A DNA stretch of 19,317 nucleotides. It comes from a candidate division KSB1 bacterium (GTDB lineage Bacteria > Zhuqueibacterota > JdFR-76 > DREG01). Under the pieces are notes generated by a model, which was not told the DNA's origin, did no database searches, and worked only from the letters and a program-made list of their open reading frames with translations. The DNA is taken from the NCBI GenBank assembly GCA_022566355.1, contig JADFJB010000095.1, positions 1 to 19,317 on the forward strand, written 5' to 3'. The position numbers and the translations under genes are program-made. Shown one piece after another: positions 3,101-16,037 of this stretch. The stretch's first letter is position 1. Each line of letters opens with the position of its first letter.

Positions 3101-3613
3101 TTATCTGATGGATGCGCGGTAAAAATTGGCTGTATCATTACCAATATTAAAACTATTTTTGACAAATCAAACAGGAAGATGGCATTTGCCACCATTGAGG
3201 ATTTTACCGGGTCAGTAGAGATGTTGGTTTTTTCATCCATTTATGAAAAAATAGGATCACTGGTTCAGCCTGATTCTCTGATCCTAATTACCGGAAAAAT
3301 CTCAACGCAGGATAATAAGGAGCCAACAATCATTTGTGAAGAAATTCTCTTACTGGCTGAAGCAAGAGAAAAGTTCACAAAAAATGTCTGTATGAATTTA
3401 AGCCTAAATGGATTGACTAACAAAAAATTAGATAGGATCAAAAAATTAGTCAATGAGCATAAAGGAAAATGCAAATTCCTTATTCATGTGACCAATGGCG
3501 ATACGAGAGAATATATTATCCAATCACAAAAGTATAGAGTTGCACCTGGGAATGATTTACTCGTAAACTTGAAGGAAATTGTCGGAGCCGAAAATGTTTG
3601 GATTGAAGGGTAA
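185..3613 (+). CDS. dnaE: DNA polymerase III subunit alpha (DnaE1 type)
   Basis: This is the catalytic subunit of the replicative DNA polymerase holoenzyme; it acts in the cytoplasm and adds dNTPs at the fork. At 1142 residues it has the normal length for DnaE. The N-terminal PHP domain (about 1-270) shows HLHNHSDYS, TDHGN, GVEAYV, SYHLIL, SACLQGE and TNDIHY. The palm has GPGRGSAAGS (357-366) and SLPDIDIDF with the paired catalytic Asp401 and Asp403. The fingers contain GIIVYQEQVMQ and FNKSHA. A helix-hairpin-helix region and an OB fold follow (about 975-1060, around TIEDFTGSVEMLVF). The PHP metal ligands H7, H9, D40, H41, E66, H88, C138, D205 and H207 all appear present, unlike E. coli DnaE, so the domain could be an active proofreading exonuclease. 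The start is supported by AAGGA six bases upstream. Family assignment is certain. Confidence 0.98.
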   Translation: MPFIHLHNHSDYSLLDGACKIKDLLKCASEQKMEALAITDHGNMFGTINFYRAAKKQGIKPIIGVEAYVAPRSRKEKSKTDRSDNSYHLILLVKNLTGYRNLLKLVSIGYLEGFYYRPRIDHEVLKEYHDGIIAMSACLQGEVAQAIVKGNIELAKQKAESYRDIFGDDFYLEMQNHEIPDEKIAAEGVQYLSKELSIPLVITNDIHYMRKEHHKPHDALVCIQTGKELDDPDRLKIETEELYFKSEQEMRELFISHQEALDITKEIANKCDLQLEFGKTYLPKYEIPSDHEADNLEDYLRQVARQNLEKRYPEITPEIEERFNFELEVIHKMGYPGYFLIVKDFIDFARSQGIPVGPGRGSAAGSIISYVLGITNIDPLKYGLLFERFLNPERVSLPDIDIDFCYERREEVIDYVRKKYGDKNVTQIITFGTMMARAVIRDVGRVLKLKYSDVDQIAKMIPFGNTIDEAYKNVKEFRDIFNSNDERFQQLLEYSKALEGVARHASTHAAGVVIAPEELTNFVPLFVSNTGDVTTQYDMNCIEDIGLLKMDFLGLRTLTVLAKIVRMLRGRDVEIDLDQIPLDDKETYELFGKGETTGIFQFESGGMRDYLMKLKPTKIDDLIAMNALYRPGPMKMIDDYIARSHGKKEIEYLHPLLESVLKETYGIIVYQEQVMQIVSVLGGFTLGEADILRKAMGKKEMDLLKKQEAKFTEGAKQKGISEKLAQKIFDLIIEFGNYGFNKSHAVCYSVVAYQTAYLKTHYPAEFMASTLTSEMSNSDRIMVLIDECRRMGLDILPPCVNDSLADFTIDGKSIRFGLAAVKNVGKGSIESIIRARKKHGAFTNIYQFLQNLDLRAVNKKVMESLAKAGAMDCLQGSRSQQFYNIENAITFAQNTQSEYQRGQFSMFDAANNGGKSVLNRFPELIETDEWSQSEQLTFERELLGFYVSGHPLNKFQDEVEAFSTIHLNKLNALSDGCAVKIGCIITNIKTIFDKSNRKMAFATIEDFTGSVEMLVFSSIYEKIGSLVQPDSLILITGKISTQDNKEPTIICEEILLLAEAREKFTKNVCMNLSLNGLTNKKLDRIKKLVNEHKGKCKFLIHVTNGDTREYIIQSQKYRVAPGNDLLVNLKEIVGAENVWIEG

Positions 3614-3723
3614 GGGTTCAGATGTTATTTTGTTTTAATGGTTAATTGTAGAACACACTATTTTTTCAATAATGTTTTTCAAAGATTACATCGGGTCATT
3701 TTAAAAACTCCCAGGAGACCATT

Positions 3724-10883: not shown

Positions 10884-11354
10884 ATGAAAACAACAATTAG
10901 AAAATCTGACCCAAAAAATGCAAACGAATTAACTTTGATTGCACACATCTCAAAAAGATACTGGGGATATTCTGAAAGCTCGATTAAGGAATGGGAAAAT
11001 GAGCTCACAATAACAAAAGAATTCATACAAGTCAATCAAGTCTTTGAAATTGTAAAGTCAAAAAAAACGGTGGGTTTCTATGCTTTGGCTGATAAAGATG
11101 AAGGAATGAGTATTGAGCATTTTTGGATTTTACCTGAATATATAGGCAACGGGTTGGGGACGAAGTTATTCCAGCATGCTGTAAAAATTGCCGGATCGAT
11201 GAGTGCTAAATGGTTTGAAATTGTATCTGATCCAAATGCAGAAGGTTTTTTTGTAAAGATGGGAGCCAAAAGAATTGGAGACCTTGTGACCCAGTTAGAA
11301 GGCAGACCTCGACGTTTACCTTTGTTTAAGTATAAATTTCCAATGAAGGAATGA
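10884..11354 (+). CDS. GNAT-family N-acetyltransferase
   Basis: This is a cytoplasmic 156-residue protein expected to transfer an acetyl group from acetyl-CoA to an unknown amine. The fold order is visible: N-terminal strand and helix (TIRKSDPKNANELTLIAHISK), a beta strand at VGFYAL, then motif A, IEHFWILPEYIGNGLGTKLF (78-95), where GNGLG is the CoA pyrophosphate loop. A later strand (WFEIVSDPNAEGFFVKMGAKRIG) is typical of motif B with the family's FYxKxGF-like turn. The stop overlaps the start of the next gene by ATGA, so the two are probably translationally coupled. The Shine-Dalgarno sequence is weak. The substrate is unknown; a partner role with the lipoprotein downstream is not evident. 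Confidence 0.88.
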   Translation: MKTTIRKSDPKNANELTLIAHISKRYWGYSESSIKEWENELTITKEFIQVNQVFEIVKSKKTVGFYALADKDEGMSIEHFWILPEYIGNGLGTKLFQHAVKIAGSMSAKWFEIVSDPNAEGFFVKMGAKRIGDLVTQLEGRPRRLPLFKYKFPMKE

Positions 11355-12325
11355 ATACCACAAGAAATATCAGAATAAATGTGTCTCTATTCGTATTGAT
11401 TTTAGGATTGTTGTTCGGATGTAATCCAGCTCAAAAATCACAATATAAACTGGAATCGAATGAGCCTTTCCTCGTTATCCTTGGAATTGCACAGGATGCC
11501 GGCTTTCCACAAGCCGGTATGAAGCAAAATGAGCTTTGGGAAGATCCGACAAAAAAAAGATACGCAACTTGCCTGGCGTTAATCGATCCTTTATCCAAAC
11601 AAAGGTGGATGTTTGAAGCTACTCCGGACTTTAAATACCAGCTTCATGAATTAGACAAGATTTTGCCTGTAGATAATGTTCCCGGATTGACTGGTATTTT
11701 TCTGACTCATGCTCATGTTGGGCATTACACCGGCTTGATACACATTGGTCATGAAATTATTGGCGGCAAGAAAGTTCCGGTTCATGCCATGCCGCGCATG
11801 CATGAATTTTTAAGTTCCAATGGCCCCTGGGATCAGTTGGTTCGGTATGAAAATATTGAATTACGAAAACTAACAAAAGATAAATCAATACAGTTGAATC
11901 CCAGGTTATCAGTTACACCATTTCTTGTTCCACACAGGGATGAATATTCTGAAACCGTTGGTTTCCGCATTCAGGGTCCGAATCGTTCGGTGATTTTTAT
12001 TCCTGATATCAATAAATGGGAAATATTGGATGAGTGGGGGATCAGGATTGAGGATTTAATTTCACAGGTTGATGTTGCATTGTTGGATGGCTCTTTTTTT
12101 GCCGACGGGGAAGTGCCGGGGCGGGTGATGTCTGAAATACCACACCCTTTTATTTCTGAAAGTATGGACCGGTTTAGTGCGCTTGCGGAACAGGAAATCG
12201 AAAAGATTAAATTCATTCACCTGAACCGAACCAATCCTGCGCTGTTTGAAGAAAACATAGAATTTAAAGAAATTAAAGCTAAAGGATTTGGACTTGCCAA
12301 AGAATTAGAAAGGATCAGGCTTTAG
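11351..12325 (+). CDS. PqqB-like metallo-beta-lactamase-fold hydrolase, predicted lipoprotein
   Basis: The 324-residue product has a basic N terminus, a hydrophobic core and a lipobox LLFGC with Cys24, so it is probably anchored to the membrane outside the cytoplasm. The body resembles the PqqB branch of the MBL fold: ILGIAQDAGFPQAGM near the N terminus, then THAHVGHYTGL with H120, H122 and H125, LVPHRDEYSETVGF with H195, FIPDI with D219, and FIHLNRTNP with H290. The aspartate of the usual HxHxDH motif is Gly124 here, which should weaken the second metal site. No other pqq genes are present, so PQQ synthesis is unlikely. The start overlaps the acetyltransferase stop (ATGA). It is probably a metal-dependent hydrolase of unknown substrate. 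Confidence 0.88.
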   Translation: MNTTRNIRINVSLFVLILGLLFGCNPAQKSQYKLESNEPFLVILGIAQDAGFPQAGMKQNELWEDPTKKRYATCLALIDPLSKQRWMFEATPDFKYQLHELDKILPVDNVPGLTGIFLTHAHVGHYTGLIHIGHEIIGGKKVPVHAMPRMHEFLSSNGPWDQLVRYENIELRKLTKDKSIQLNPRLSVTPFLVPHRDEYSETVGFRIQGPNRSVIFIPDINKWEILDEWGIRIEDLISQVDVALLDGSFFADGEVPGRVMSEIPHPFISESMDRFSALAEQEIEKIKFIHLNRTNPALFEENIEFKEIKAKGFGLAKELERIRL

Positions 12326-12489: not shown

Positions 12490-14859
12490 ATGTTCATAAA
12501 CAGACTGCTGCAACACAAAGTTTGCGTAATTTTCTTATTCGTTCTTTTATTCGGCTGTCAATCCCAAAGAGCAGATATCCCAGCAAGAGCTGATTACACC
12601 TCAGTTACCAAAGCTTTAGAACGTGTAATCACCAGGGAAATGGAGGACAAACAATTTTCGGCTGTATCCATCGCTCTGGTGGATGACCAGGAAATCGTCT
12701 GGGCAAAAGGATTTGGCATGGCTGATCCTGATAAAAAAACCGTTGCTACTGCTGAAACAGTTTACAGAATTGCATCTCTGTCTAAGTTGTTCACTGATAT
12801 GTCTGTTATGCAGCTTGCAGAAAGCGGAAAAATAGATATCGATGCGCCTGTCACAGATTATCTGCCAAATTTCCAACCACAAAATTCATTTGGTAAAAGG
12901 TTAACACTTCGACAAATTATGAGTCATCGTGCCGGAATTGTGCGTGAACCGCCGGTTGGACATTACTTCGATCCTACTGAACCAACAGTCGCACAATTGG
13001 TTGAGAGCCTAAATCAAACAGCTTTGGTCTATGAGCCCGAAACACGCACCAAGTATTCAAATGCCGGCATTTCAGTAGCAGGGTTTGCCGTTGAGAAAGT
13101 TGCTGAAAAGCCTTTCATCCAATACATCCAAGCCGCAATACTTGATCCAATTGGCATGACGAGAAGCGCCTATGAACCCCTCCCGGAAATCAAAAAACAT
13201 TTGGCAAAGGGTTACATGTGGACTTATGATGGCAGAACTTTTGAAGCTCCTACATTTCAACTGGGTATGGTGCCTGCCGCTGGCATGTATTCCACCGTTA
13301 AAGATCTGGCAAGGTTTATGAAGGTGCTGTTCAACAATGGGGAAGGCCCCGGTGGAGCCATACTCAAACCAGAGACCCTTGCGAAAATGTATGAGATCCA
13401 ATACGCAAGCGAGGAACAGAAATCCGGCTTCGGACTAGGGTTTTATGTTAATGAATTCGAAGGGAAACGAAAAATCGGGCACGGTGGTGTGATGTATGGA
13501 TATGCTACTCAAATTGCCGCATTACCGGATGAGAAATTGGGAGTCGTAACGATTATTACATTAGATGCAGCCAATGAAGTAGCAAACCGGATAAATAATT
13601 ATGCATTTAAACTCATGCTGGCTAAAAAAGAGGGTAAAGTTCTTCCCGAGTTTGATCAACCGGGATCACCGATTCCGACTGAAGTTATACGAAAAATAGA
13701 AGGTACTTATGTAAATTTAAAACGTACCGTTGAGCTCAAGGAACAAAATGGAAAATTATTCCTTTATTCCGGCAGTATTCGTGCAGAATTAAAATCCATT
13801 GGAGATACGTTAATTACAGATGATCCTTTGGGCTATGGTGTAAAGATAGTGCCACAAGAAAATGGCGGTATTATTTATCAAAGTGAATCTCTGTCCCGGC
13901 TGACACTCGATCAACCAACCTCAATCCCAAAACACTGGAATGGTTTGATTGGGGAATATGGTTGGGACCACAACACGCTTTATATATTGGAGAAATATGG
14001 AAAACTGTACACTCTAATCGAGTGGTTTTTCTATTATCCCCTTGAGGAAATATCCAGGAATGTTTATGCTTTTCCAAATTATGGATTATATCATGGAGAA
14101 AAGCTCATTTTTGATCGCGATGATAAAGGGTATGCTACGCAAGTGGAGGCAGCCAATGTGGTTTTCAAACGAAGGCCCGCTGGCATGGATGGAGGCGCTA
14201 CATTCAAAATTAAACCTCTTAAAGAGAGTGAGGAACTTCGAAAAACTGCGCTGGCAGCAAATCCACCTGCGGAAAATAGAGAGCTTGAAGCGGATCTGGT
14301 AGATATTACGCAATTGGATAACACCATCAAATTAGATATACGTTATAGTTCAACCAACAATTTTATGAGTACCGTATTTTATGAACAGGCAAAAGCCTTT
14401 ATGCAACGCCCAGCCGCAGAGGCCCTGGTTCGTGTGCATCGTGATTTGAAAAAGATGGGCTATGGTCTTTTGATCCATGATGCTTATCGACCCTGGTATG
14501 TTACCAAGATGTTCTGGGATGCCACTCCGGAAAGTCTCAAGCATTTTGTTGCAGATCCGCAAAAAGGATCGAGGCACAATAGGGGATGTGCAGTGGACTT
14601 GACACTTTATGACTTAAAGACTGGAGAAACGGTCGATATGGTCGCTACCTATGATGAATTTTCCGATCGGTCGTTTCCTTATTATCCGGGTGGAACATCA
14701 CAACAGAGATGGCTGAGAAAATTATTGCGAAATTCAATGGAGGCGGAAGGTTTTGAAATTTATCAATTTGAATGGTGGCATTTCGATTACGAAACCTGGC
14801 AAAAATATCCCATATCAAATCTTACTTTTGAAGGAATTCTGAATCAAAATCAACAATGA
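12490..14859 (+). CDS. Lipoprotein fusion of S12 serine hydrolase and M15D D-Ala-D-Ala dipeptidase
   Basis: This 789-residue predicted lipoprotein (lipobox VLLFGC, Cys23) joins three parts. Residues about 35-385 are a class C beta-lactamase/D,D-peptidase (S12) domain with S96-L-S-K99, Y189-S-N191 and H331-G-G. Residues about 395-565 hold two beta-rich repeats, EGTYVNLKRTVELKEQNGK and GEYGWDHNTLYILEKYGK, like lipocalin-type appendages of S12 proteins. Residues about 600-789 are a VanX/DdpX-type dipeptidase with zinc ligands H696 and D703 (SRHNRGCAVD) and H764, catalytic E761 (EWWH), and R667 in DAYRPW. All catalytic residues of both enzymes are present. It would act at the cell surface or in the periplasm, perhaps trimming D-amino-acid peptides to single residues. 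AAGGA precedes the ATG by eight bases. The stop overlaps the ureohydrolase start. Substrate is inferred from the families only. Confidence 0.93.
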   Translation: MFINRLLQHKVCVIFLFVLLFGCQSQRADIPARADYTSVTKALERVITREMEDKQFSAVSIALVDDQEIVWAKGFGMADPDKKTVATAETVYRIASLSKLFTDMSVMQLAESGKIDIDAPVTDYLPNFQPQNSFGKRLTLRQIMSHRAGIVREPPVGHYFDPTEPTVAQLVESLNQTALVYEPETRTKYSNAGISVAGFAVEKVAEKPFIQYIQAAILDPIGMTRSAYEPLPEIKKHLAKGYMWTYDGRTFEAPTFQLGMVPAAGMYSTVKDLARFMKVLFNNGEGPGGAILKPETLAKMYEIQYASEEQKSGFGLGFYVNEFEGKRKIGHGGVMYGYATQIAALPDEKLGVVTIITLDAANEVANRINNYAFKLMLAKKEGKVLPEFDQPGSPIPTEVIRKIEGTYVNLKRTVELKEQNGKLFLYSGSIRAELKSIGDTLITDDPLGYGVKIVPQENGGIIYQSESLSRLTLDQPTSIPKHWNGLIGEYGWDHNTLYILEKYGKLYTLIEWFFYYPLEEISRNVYAFPNYGLYHGEKLIFDRDDKGYATQVEAANVVFKRRPAGMDGGATFKIKPLKESEELRKTALAANPPAENRELEADLVDITQLDNTIKLDIRYSSTNNFMSTVFYEQAKAFMQRPAAEALVRVHRDLKKMGYGLLIHDAYRPWYVTKMFWDATPESLKHFVADPQKGSRHNRGCAVDLTLYDLKTGETVDMVATYDEFSDRSFPYYPGGTSQQRWLRKLLRNSMEAEGFEIYQFEWWHFDYETWQKYPISNLTFEGILNQNQQ

Positions 14860-15680
14860 TATCATCTCAAGAGATAGAATCCAACAATCAGAGCGTAATA
14901 CTAATCGGGTTTCCATTTGATGAATATTCATCGTATTTGAAGGGCGCTGCCAAAGCGCCGCAAGCTATTCGGGATGCTTTAAAATCGGAATCGACCAACT
15001 CCTTTAGTGAATCAGGGCTTGATCTGAGTATTCCTGATGTACTTAAAGATTTTGGTGATGTTGTGTTTTCTTCTGATGAATATGTAAGCAAGATCGGCAC
15101 ATCCATTCAAGGTATTCTCCGAAGTGACCAAATCCCAATAGCGCTTGGAGGAGATCACTCTATCACATATCCGATTGTCAAAGCATTTCATAAAAAATAT
15201 CCGCTGTTAAATATTCTTCATTTTGACGCCCATCCTGATCTTTACGATGAATTCCAGGGTAACCGGTTTTCGCACGCCTGTCCATTTGCAAGGATCATGG
15301 AAGAAAATCTAGCGTCGCGGCTTATTCAACTAGGGATTCGAACCTGCACGCAACACCAAAGAGATCAGGCAAAAAAATTTGGTGTTGAAATGATCGAAAT
15401 GAAAGATTGGACTCAAAAATTCAGTATTGATTTCGAGGGACCAATTTATATATCGTTTGATTTGGATGTGCTGGATCCCGCTTATGCCCCTGGTGTTTCA
15501 CATCATGAGCCAGGTGGCGCTTCAATTCGGCAAGTATTAAATGTAATTCAACAATTAAACTGCAAGATAGTCGGTGCAGATGTTGTTGAATTAAATCCGG
15601 AAAGAGATCCGTTTGGTATAACAGCAATGACGGCTGCTAAAATTGTTAAAGAAATCGCAGCAAAAATGATCCAGAAATAG
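14856..15680 (+). CDS. Agmatinase/arginase-family ureohydrolase
   Basis: This cytoplasmic binuclear manganese enzyme of 274 residues is expected to release urea from a guanidino compound, most often agmatine to putrescine. All metal ligands are present: H101 in ALGGDHSITYP, D124, H126 and D128 in FDAHPDLYD, and D202 and D204 in SFDLDVLDPAYAPG. SHACPFARI (139-147) and the HHEPGG turn fit the agmatinase side of the family, but arginase, guanidinobutyrase or formiminoglutamase cannot be excluded. Length is slightly shorter than typical SpeB (about 300). The start overlaps the stop of the S12-M15D gene by ATGA, implying translational coupling and perhaps joint use in nitrogen recovery. No signal peptide is present. 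Confidence 0.92.
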   Translation: MISSQEIESNNQSVILIGFPFDEYSSYLKGAAKAPQAIRDALKSESTNSFSESGLDLSIPDVLKDFGDVVFSSDEYVSKIGTSIQGILRSDQIPIALGGDHSITYPIVKAFHKKYPLLNILHFDAHPDLYDEFQGNRFSHACPFARIMEENLASRLIQLGIRTCTQHQRDQAKKFGVEMIEMKDWTQKFSIDFEGPIYISFDLDVLDPAYAPGVSHHEPGGASIRQVLNVIQQLNCKIVGADVVELNPERDPFGITAMTAAKIVKEIAAKMIQK

Positions 15681-15845: not shown

Positions 15846-16037
15846 ATGAGTCATATGAATCCACTTGAGAAGTCAAAAGTTGATTATGCTGAGTTGATCA
15901 AAAAAATAGGATCGGCTGATTCACCTGTTGGTATCGATGCTGGTTATACACATGCTGTGATCATCGAGTATTTGCGGCAAATTAGCGATAGGTTGGACAA
16001 ACTTGAACAAGCGATCGGTGTAAAAGAAAATAGCTAA
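15846..16037 (+). CDS. Conserved-looking small protein with C-terminal coiled-coil segment
   Basis: A 63-residue soluble protein. The middle has SADSPVGIDAGYTHAVIIEYL, followed by a heptad-like helix QISDRLDKLEQAIGV that could form a short coiled coil. AAAGGA lies 11 bases upstream of the ATG; an in-frame ATG nine bases later is an alternative start. I recall similar short proteins annotated as hypothetical but no function. It is separated from the ureohydrolase by 165 bases and probably has its own transcript. The compact sequence and coding-type composition make a real gene likely despite the short length. Confidence 0.65.
   Translation: MSHMNPLEKSKVDYAELIKKIGSADSPVGIDAGYTHAVIIEYLRQISDRLDKLEQAIGVKENS

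Follow-up and report, generated by a model that had tools for sequence, protein, structure and literature searches.

An exported S12-M15D fusion, probably a bifunctional D-peptide hydrolase, with a probable plant-type arginase as its local neighbour

The window, that is, the whole 19,317-nucleotide stretch of DNA that we analysed, carries on its forward strand a long gene joining two peptidase domains and, immediately downstream, a gene for a ureohydrolase, P0002. The features of the two genes are as follows.

12490..14859, + strand: fusion of an S12 domain, two beta-barrels and an M15D domain; 789 aa, predicted exported lipoprotein
12490..12558, + strand: signal peptide with lipobox LFGC, Cys23
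12616..13587, + strand: S12 (serine beta-lactamase-like) domain, residues 43-366 (Pfam, alignment)
12775-12786, 13054-13062 and 13480-13488, + strand: S12 motifs SLSK, YSN and HGG, respectively
13687..13902, + strand: first small beta-barrel, residues about 400-471 (predicted structure)
13951..14172, + strand: second small beta-barrel, residues about 488-561, with conserved IEWFFYYPL (predicted structure, alignment)
14287..14790, + strand: M15D (VanX/DdpX-type) zinc dipeptidase domain, residues 600-767 (Pfam, alignment)
14479-14490, 14569-14598 and 14770-14781, + strand: M15D motifs DAYR, SRHNRGCAVD and EWWH, respectively
14856..14859, + strand: ATGA stop/start overlap of the fusion and P0002, not kept in the nearest relative
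14856..15680, + strand: plant-type arginase-like ureohydrolase P0002, 274 aa; Asn48 codon 14997-14999, Tyr130 codon 15243-15245

Residues 43-366 of the fusion matched Pfam Beta-lactamase (PF00144, 3.8e-68), and the three signatures of an S12 serine peptidase (SxxK, YxN and HxG) lie inside that domain as SLSK (residues 96-99), YSN (189-191) and HGG (331-333). Likewise, residues 600-767 matched Pfam Peptidase_M15 (PF01427, 2.3e-33) and contain the M15D signatures DxYR, SxHxxGxAxD and ExWH as DAYR (664-667), SRHNRGCAVD (694-703) and EWWH (761-764). Across 13 aligned sequences the catalytic residues varied little or not at all, and every fused copy retained the zinc and Arg motifs of M15D. A preliminary description of the window had reported a 789-residue lipoprotein with complete S12 and M15D catalytic sets whose stop overlaps the next start by ATGA, and the domains, motifs, lipobox and coordinates bear out both statements. 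It had further proposed a surface enzyme, of which the export signal stands: some relatives have a lipobox and the rest an ordinary signal peptide-like N terminus, so that export looks conserved from these sequences and lipid anchoring does not. As the lipobox is present in only part of the relatives, a surface location is left unsupported.

The predicted structure placed two small beta-barrels between the catalytic domains, a region missed by both Pfam and the preliminary description. An S12 domain followed by two C-terminal beta-barrels is the architecture of DAP-like D-aminopeptidases, and the predicted fold of the fusion has the same arrangement. The structure was modelled from 13 sequences, and how its domains pack together is uncertain (pTM was 0.77 for the whole model and 0.50 for the barrels). 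Because the full-model structure alignment rows (VIA-align) spanned mostly residues 32-382, the middle region was folded and searched alone, and its only matches at Foldseek E <= 0.001 were DAP (1ei5, 3.3e-7), the DL-peptidase Lip3 (9sn1) and SurE. The second barrel aligned with the C-terminal barrel of DAP with a Z of 10.1, 27% identity and an rmsd of 2.5 across 84 residues, and it fitted the PBP cyclase Ulm16, the esterase IS11 and Pab87 at Z similar to DAP.

The nearest structural relatives of the fusion were thus the D-stereospecific S12 enzymes Pab87, D-aminopeptidase DAP, SurE and Lip3. DAP of Ochrobactrum anthropi (PDB 1ei5) shares the S12 domain and the beta-barrels that follow it, which align with those of the fusion, but it has no M15D domain and only about 20% identity over the whole alignment. 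By sequence, the closest solved structure to the S12 part was the CubicO peptidase Pab87 of Pyrococcus abyssi (2qmi, 139.8 bits), which resembles the fusion in its lipocalin-like C-terminal barrel as well but differs in being an archaeal octamer with a single barrel and no M15D. Pab87 is a D-stereospecific aminopeptidase and DD-carboxypeptidase that prefers D-Ala-pNA and trims muropeptides (PMC2651629). The likeness to these enzymes, Pab87 being the closest, supports the earlier suggestion that the fusion may act on D-amino-acid peptides. Esterases and LACTB were also among the sequence and fold matches of the S12 part, and the domain could therefore have another substrate.

The M15D domain, in turn, shares Pfam Peptidase_M15 and the full set of zinc and Arg motifs with the dipeptidases VanX and DdpX, but these are lone enzymes whereas the fusion is exported and fused. 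Its scores remained below the NCBIfam equivalog cut-offs of both (81.9 vs 320 bits for VanX, 143.5 vs 176 for DdpX). A VanX-type M15D domain joined to a beta-lactamase-like S12 domain could suggest a protein of glycopeptide resistance or one that hydrolyses beta-lactams. VanX works on the cytoplasmic D-Ala-D-Ala pool, however, whereas the fusion has an export signal, and the scans of window ORFs with Pfam and NCBIfam profiles gave no match to vanH or vanA, so that neither the cytoplasmic location nor the partners of a VanX resistance system were found. With the low VanX score and a score of 74.2 against the cut-off of 415 for the class C beta-lactamase model, a resistance role of either kind is barely credible, and vancomycin resistance in particular was ruled out by location and by the low model scores.

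The preliminary description had proposed a search for other proteins combining S12 and M15D, and this search found the architecture in several bacterial phyla. In the phylum of the window's genome, 12 of the 82 genomes contained the fusion, 10 of them in full length and 2 as fragments at contig ends; matches were present in 13 of 199 sampled Planctomycetota genomes, and a scan of genome contigs recovered relatives from Calditrichia, Rhodothermales and Planctomycetota. Among the carriers of the fusion is the culturable Aquisphaera insulae (L046). As full-length relatives with 46-70% identity occur in several phyla, the fusion is not a chance product, and on the sequences compared the S12-M15D fusion is a conserved and widespread architecture. 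The fused M15D copies clustered apart from the stand-alone M15Ds (support 0.949) in a group that also includes the M15Ds of contigs L050 and L051, a pattern that fits a single origin and later transfer. We found no published account of the fusion in a literature search that was thin on subscription papers, and the preliminary description had likewise been unable to name a described system pairing S12 and M15D with a ureohydrolase.

Stand-alone M15Ds were present in 25 of the 82 genomes of the phylum, weak matches under about 90 bits being omitted from the count, and in none of the 12 with the fusion. The chance of such exclusion is about 0.009 if the two occur independently, and 0.020 without the two fragment genomes, in a test that is over-simple in ignoring the shared ancestry of relatives. 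Most stand-alone M15Ds had signal-like N termini, too. The neighbours of the other fusion genes were often peptidases (M20, M2, S9, S33/S15, M1) of no fixed family, and the neighbourhoods inspected revealed no constant partner gene.

Other arrangements of M15D were also seen. A 1137-aa Planctomycetota protein (L042 4902-8315) has two S12 domains and then M15D, a form that may be shared by two open frames, one of 1145 aa in G141 and one of 1179 aa in G198. On a Flammeovirgaceae contig (L051 4191-5663), a 490-aa frame joins BacA/UppP (residues 6-258) to an M15D (303-469) of the same branch as that of the fusion.

We propose, with a probability of about 0.68, that the fusion protein is exported and hydrolyses D-peptides through both of its catalytic domains, and that the downstream gene encodes a separate enzyme adjoining it through local gene order. 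The S12 domain and the barrels, built like DAP, would cleave bonds beside D-residues, whether in fragments of peptidoglycan or in other D-peptides, and the C-terminal M15D would split dipeptides of the D-Ala-D-Ala type; on one exported chain, the two could degrade D-peptides outside the cytoplasm to free amino acids for uptake. The proposal builds on the observed domain make-up, catalytic motifs, export signal, conserved architecture, fold relatives and lack of a co-occurring separate M15D, while D-specificity, the order of cleavage and a nutritional role we infer from likeness of fold and sequence. A simple relay from S12 to M15D is not obvious, because a DD-carboxypeptidase frees single D-Ala and M15D needs a dipeptide, and the domains may equally well act in parallel as in sequence. 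We offer only tentatively the more specific scenario that a DAP-like S12 domain hands D,D-dipeptides to the fused M15D and that the unit spread between phyla, replacing a stand-alone exported dipeptidase.

The main rival to D-peptide degradation is cell-wall maturation, in which the S12 domain would trim the cell's own stem peptides and M15D would clear D-Ala-D-Ala from the periplasm, neither of them serving nutrition. In favour of this, Pab87 has DD-carboxypeptidase activity on muropeptides (PMC2651629), the BacA/UppP fusion of L051 links this M15D branch to envelope synthesis, and the fusion has an AmpH-like NCBIfam match, albeit of 107.3 bits and below the cut-off of 266. Yet the occurrence is patchy (the 12 of 82 and 13 of 199 genomes above) and no cell-wall gene constantly adjoins the fusion, and we consider a maturation role unlikely. 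If the fusion degrades D-peptides, the matter has wider interest: the D-amino acids of peptidoglycan represent a store of nutrients with few described exported enzymes dedicated to it, and the recurrent fusion of two D-residue enzyme types provides a testable handle on how Planctomycetota and related groups may draw on this store.

The ureohydrolase had been assigned to the agmatinase family, and P0002 does exceed the cut-off of the agmatinase model TIGR01230 (214.6 bits vs 174.3) and fall below that of the RocF-type arginase model TIGR01229 (77.3 vs 227.6). However, other proteins of the plant-type arginase clade exceed the TIGR01230 cut-off as well, and the substrate label is probably wrong. 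The closest solved structures to P0002 were those of plant arginases, at 246 bits, with the best agmatinase reaching 131. In plant arginases the carboxylate of the substrate is held by an Asn in loop L2* and a Tyr in loop L4, and the agmatinases compared with them lack both (PMC7370999). Residues of the Asn48 and Tyr130 type were found in 21 of 21 clade members, two plant enzymes included, whereas the genome's other ureohydrolase, SpeB, has Tyr and Arg at these positions. P0002 grouped with the plant arginases, apart from SpeB (clade support 0.79); with AtARGAH1 (6vsu) and MtARGAH (6vss) it shares about 50% identity, the Ser-Thr-Asn motif and the Tyr and Phe of the substrate pocket, but unlike them it is bacterial and called an agmatinase by TIGR01230.

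Elsewhere in the genome, SpeB lies beside a pyruvoyl-dependent arginine decarboxylase (C33) and is likely the agmatinase of this organism, and an ornithine aminotransferase is encoded at C52. With the plant-arginase scores, the Asn and Tyr, the clade and the separate SpeB, we set aside an agmatinase function for P0002, which is probably an arginase of plant type, possibly with agmatinase side activity as has been proposed for plants. In the cytoplasm it would convert L-arginine to ornithine and urea, with ornithine passing onward through ornithine aminotransferase. No urease exceeded the family cut-off in this genome, and the nitrogen of urea is therefore probably not released intracellularly by urease. 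Judging from this case, the agmatinase model seems to cover bacterial arginase-like enzymes as well, and some bacterial agmatinase labels are then probably wrong.

The preliminary description had taken the two genes for a coupled unit, in which the breakdown of D-peptides at the surface feeds intracellular nitrogen release by the ureohydrolase. The ATGA overlap in the window favours such coupling, as do the adjacency of the genes in a second genome, G005, and the finding in G015 and G016 of a P0002-type arginase immediately downstream of a DPP7-like S46 peptidase. Against this, fusion and ureohydrolase were side by side only in the window's genome (G000) and G005, which belong to the same family. 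The preliminary description had itself named a lack of conservation of this neighbour in relatives as grounds for rejecting the coupling, and that lack is what the comparison showed. In G005, apparently the genome to which contig L038 belongs, the genes are roughly 100 bases or more apart with a repeat-like stretch in the gap, and the first homologous residues have no in-frame ATG ahead of them, the overlap being lost. Most other fusion genomes lack a P0002-type arginase, and the next closest relatives of P0002 occur in genomes without the fusion. Among 11 genomes of the phylum of the Rhodothermales contig, the arginase had no constant peptidase or other common neighbour, and a link to exported peptidases was not clear in G007 and G024; G016 has an M13 peptidase besides the S46, but the evidence for a general tie is weak. 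With the probable arginase function and no urease over the cut-off, the proposed coupling did not hold up and is very improbable; a conserved operon was ruled out by the adjacency in two genomes only. The adjacency of fusion and arginase is, in our reading, a matter of local gene order, and P0002 probably has no functional part in the role of the fusion.

A few further observations concern the surroundings of these genes. In L168 (4388-7721), a P0002-type arginase follows a D-Ala-D-Ala ligase, and arginase, ligase and a dihydroorotase lie head to tail almost without gaps. Downstream of the arginase in the window is a 63-codon ORF (15846-16037) with similar sequence in L038 around 3389-3721, and a TPR gene follows this region in both. 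Upstream of the fusion (10884-12325), a GNAT gene overlaps a gene of the metallo-beta-lactamase fold that resembles PqqB but stays far under the cut-off for it (98.3 vs 245).
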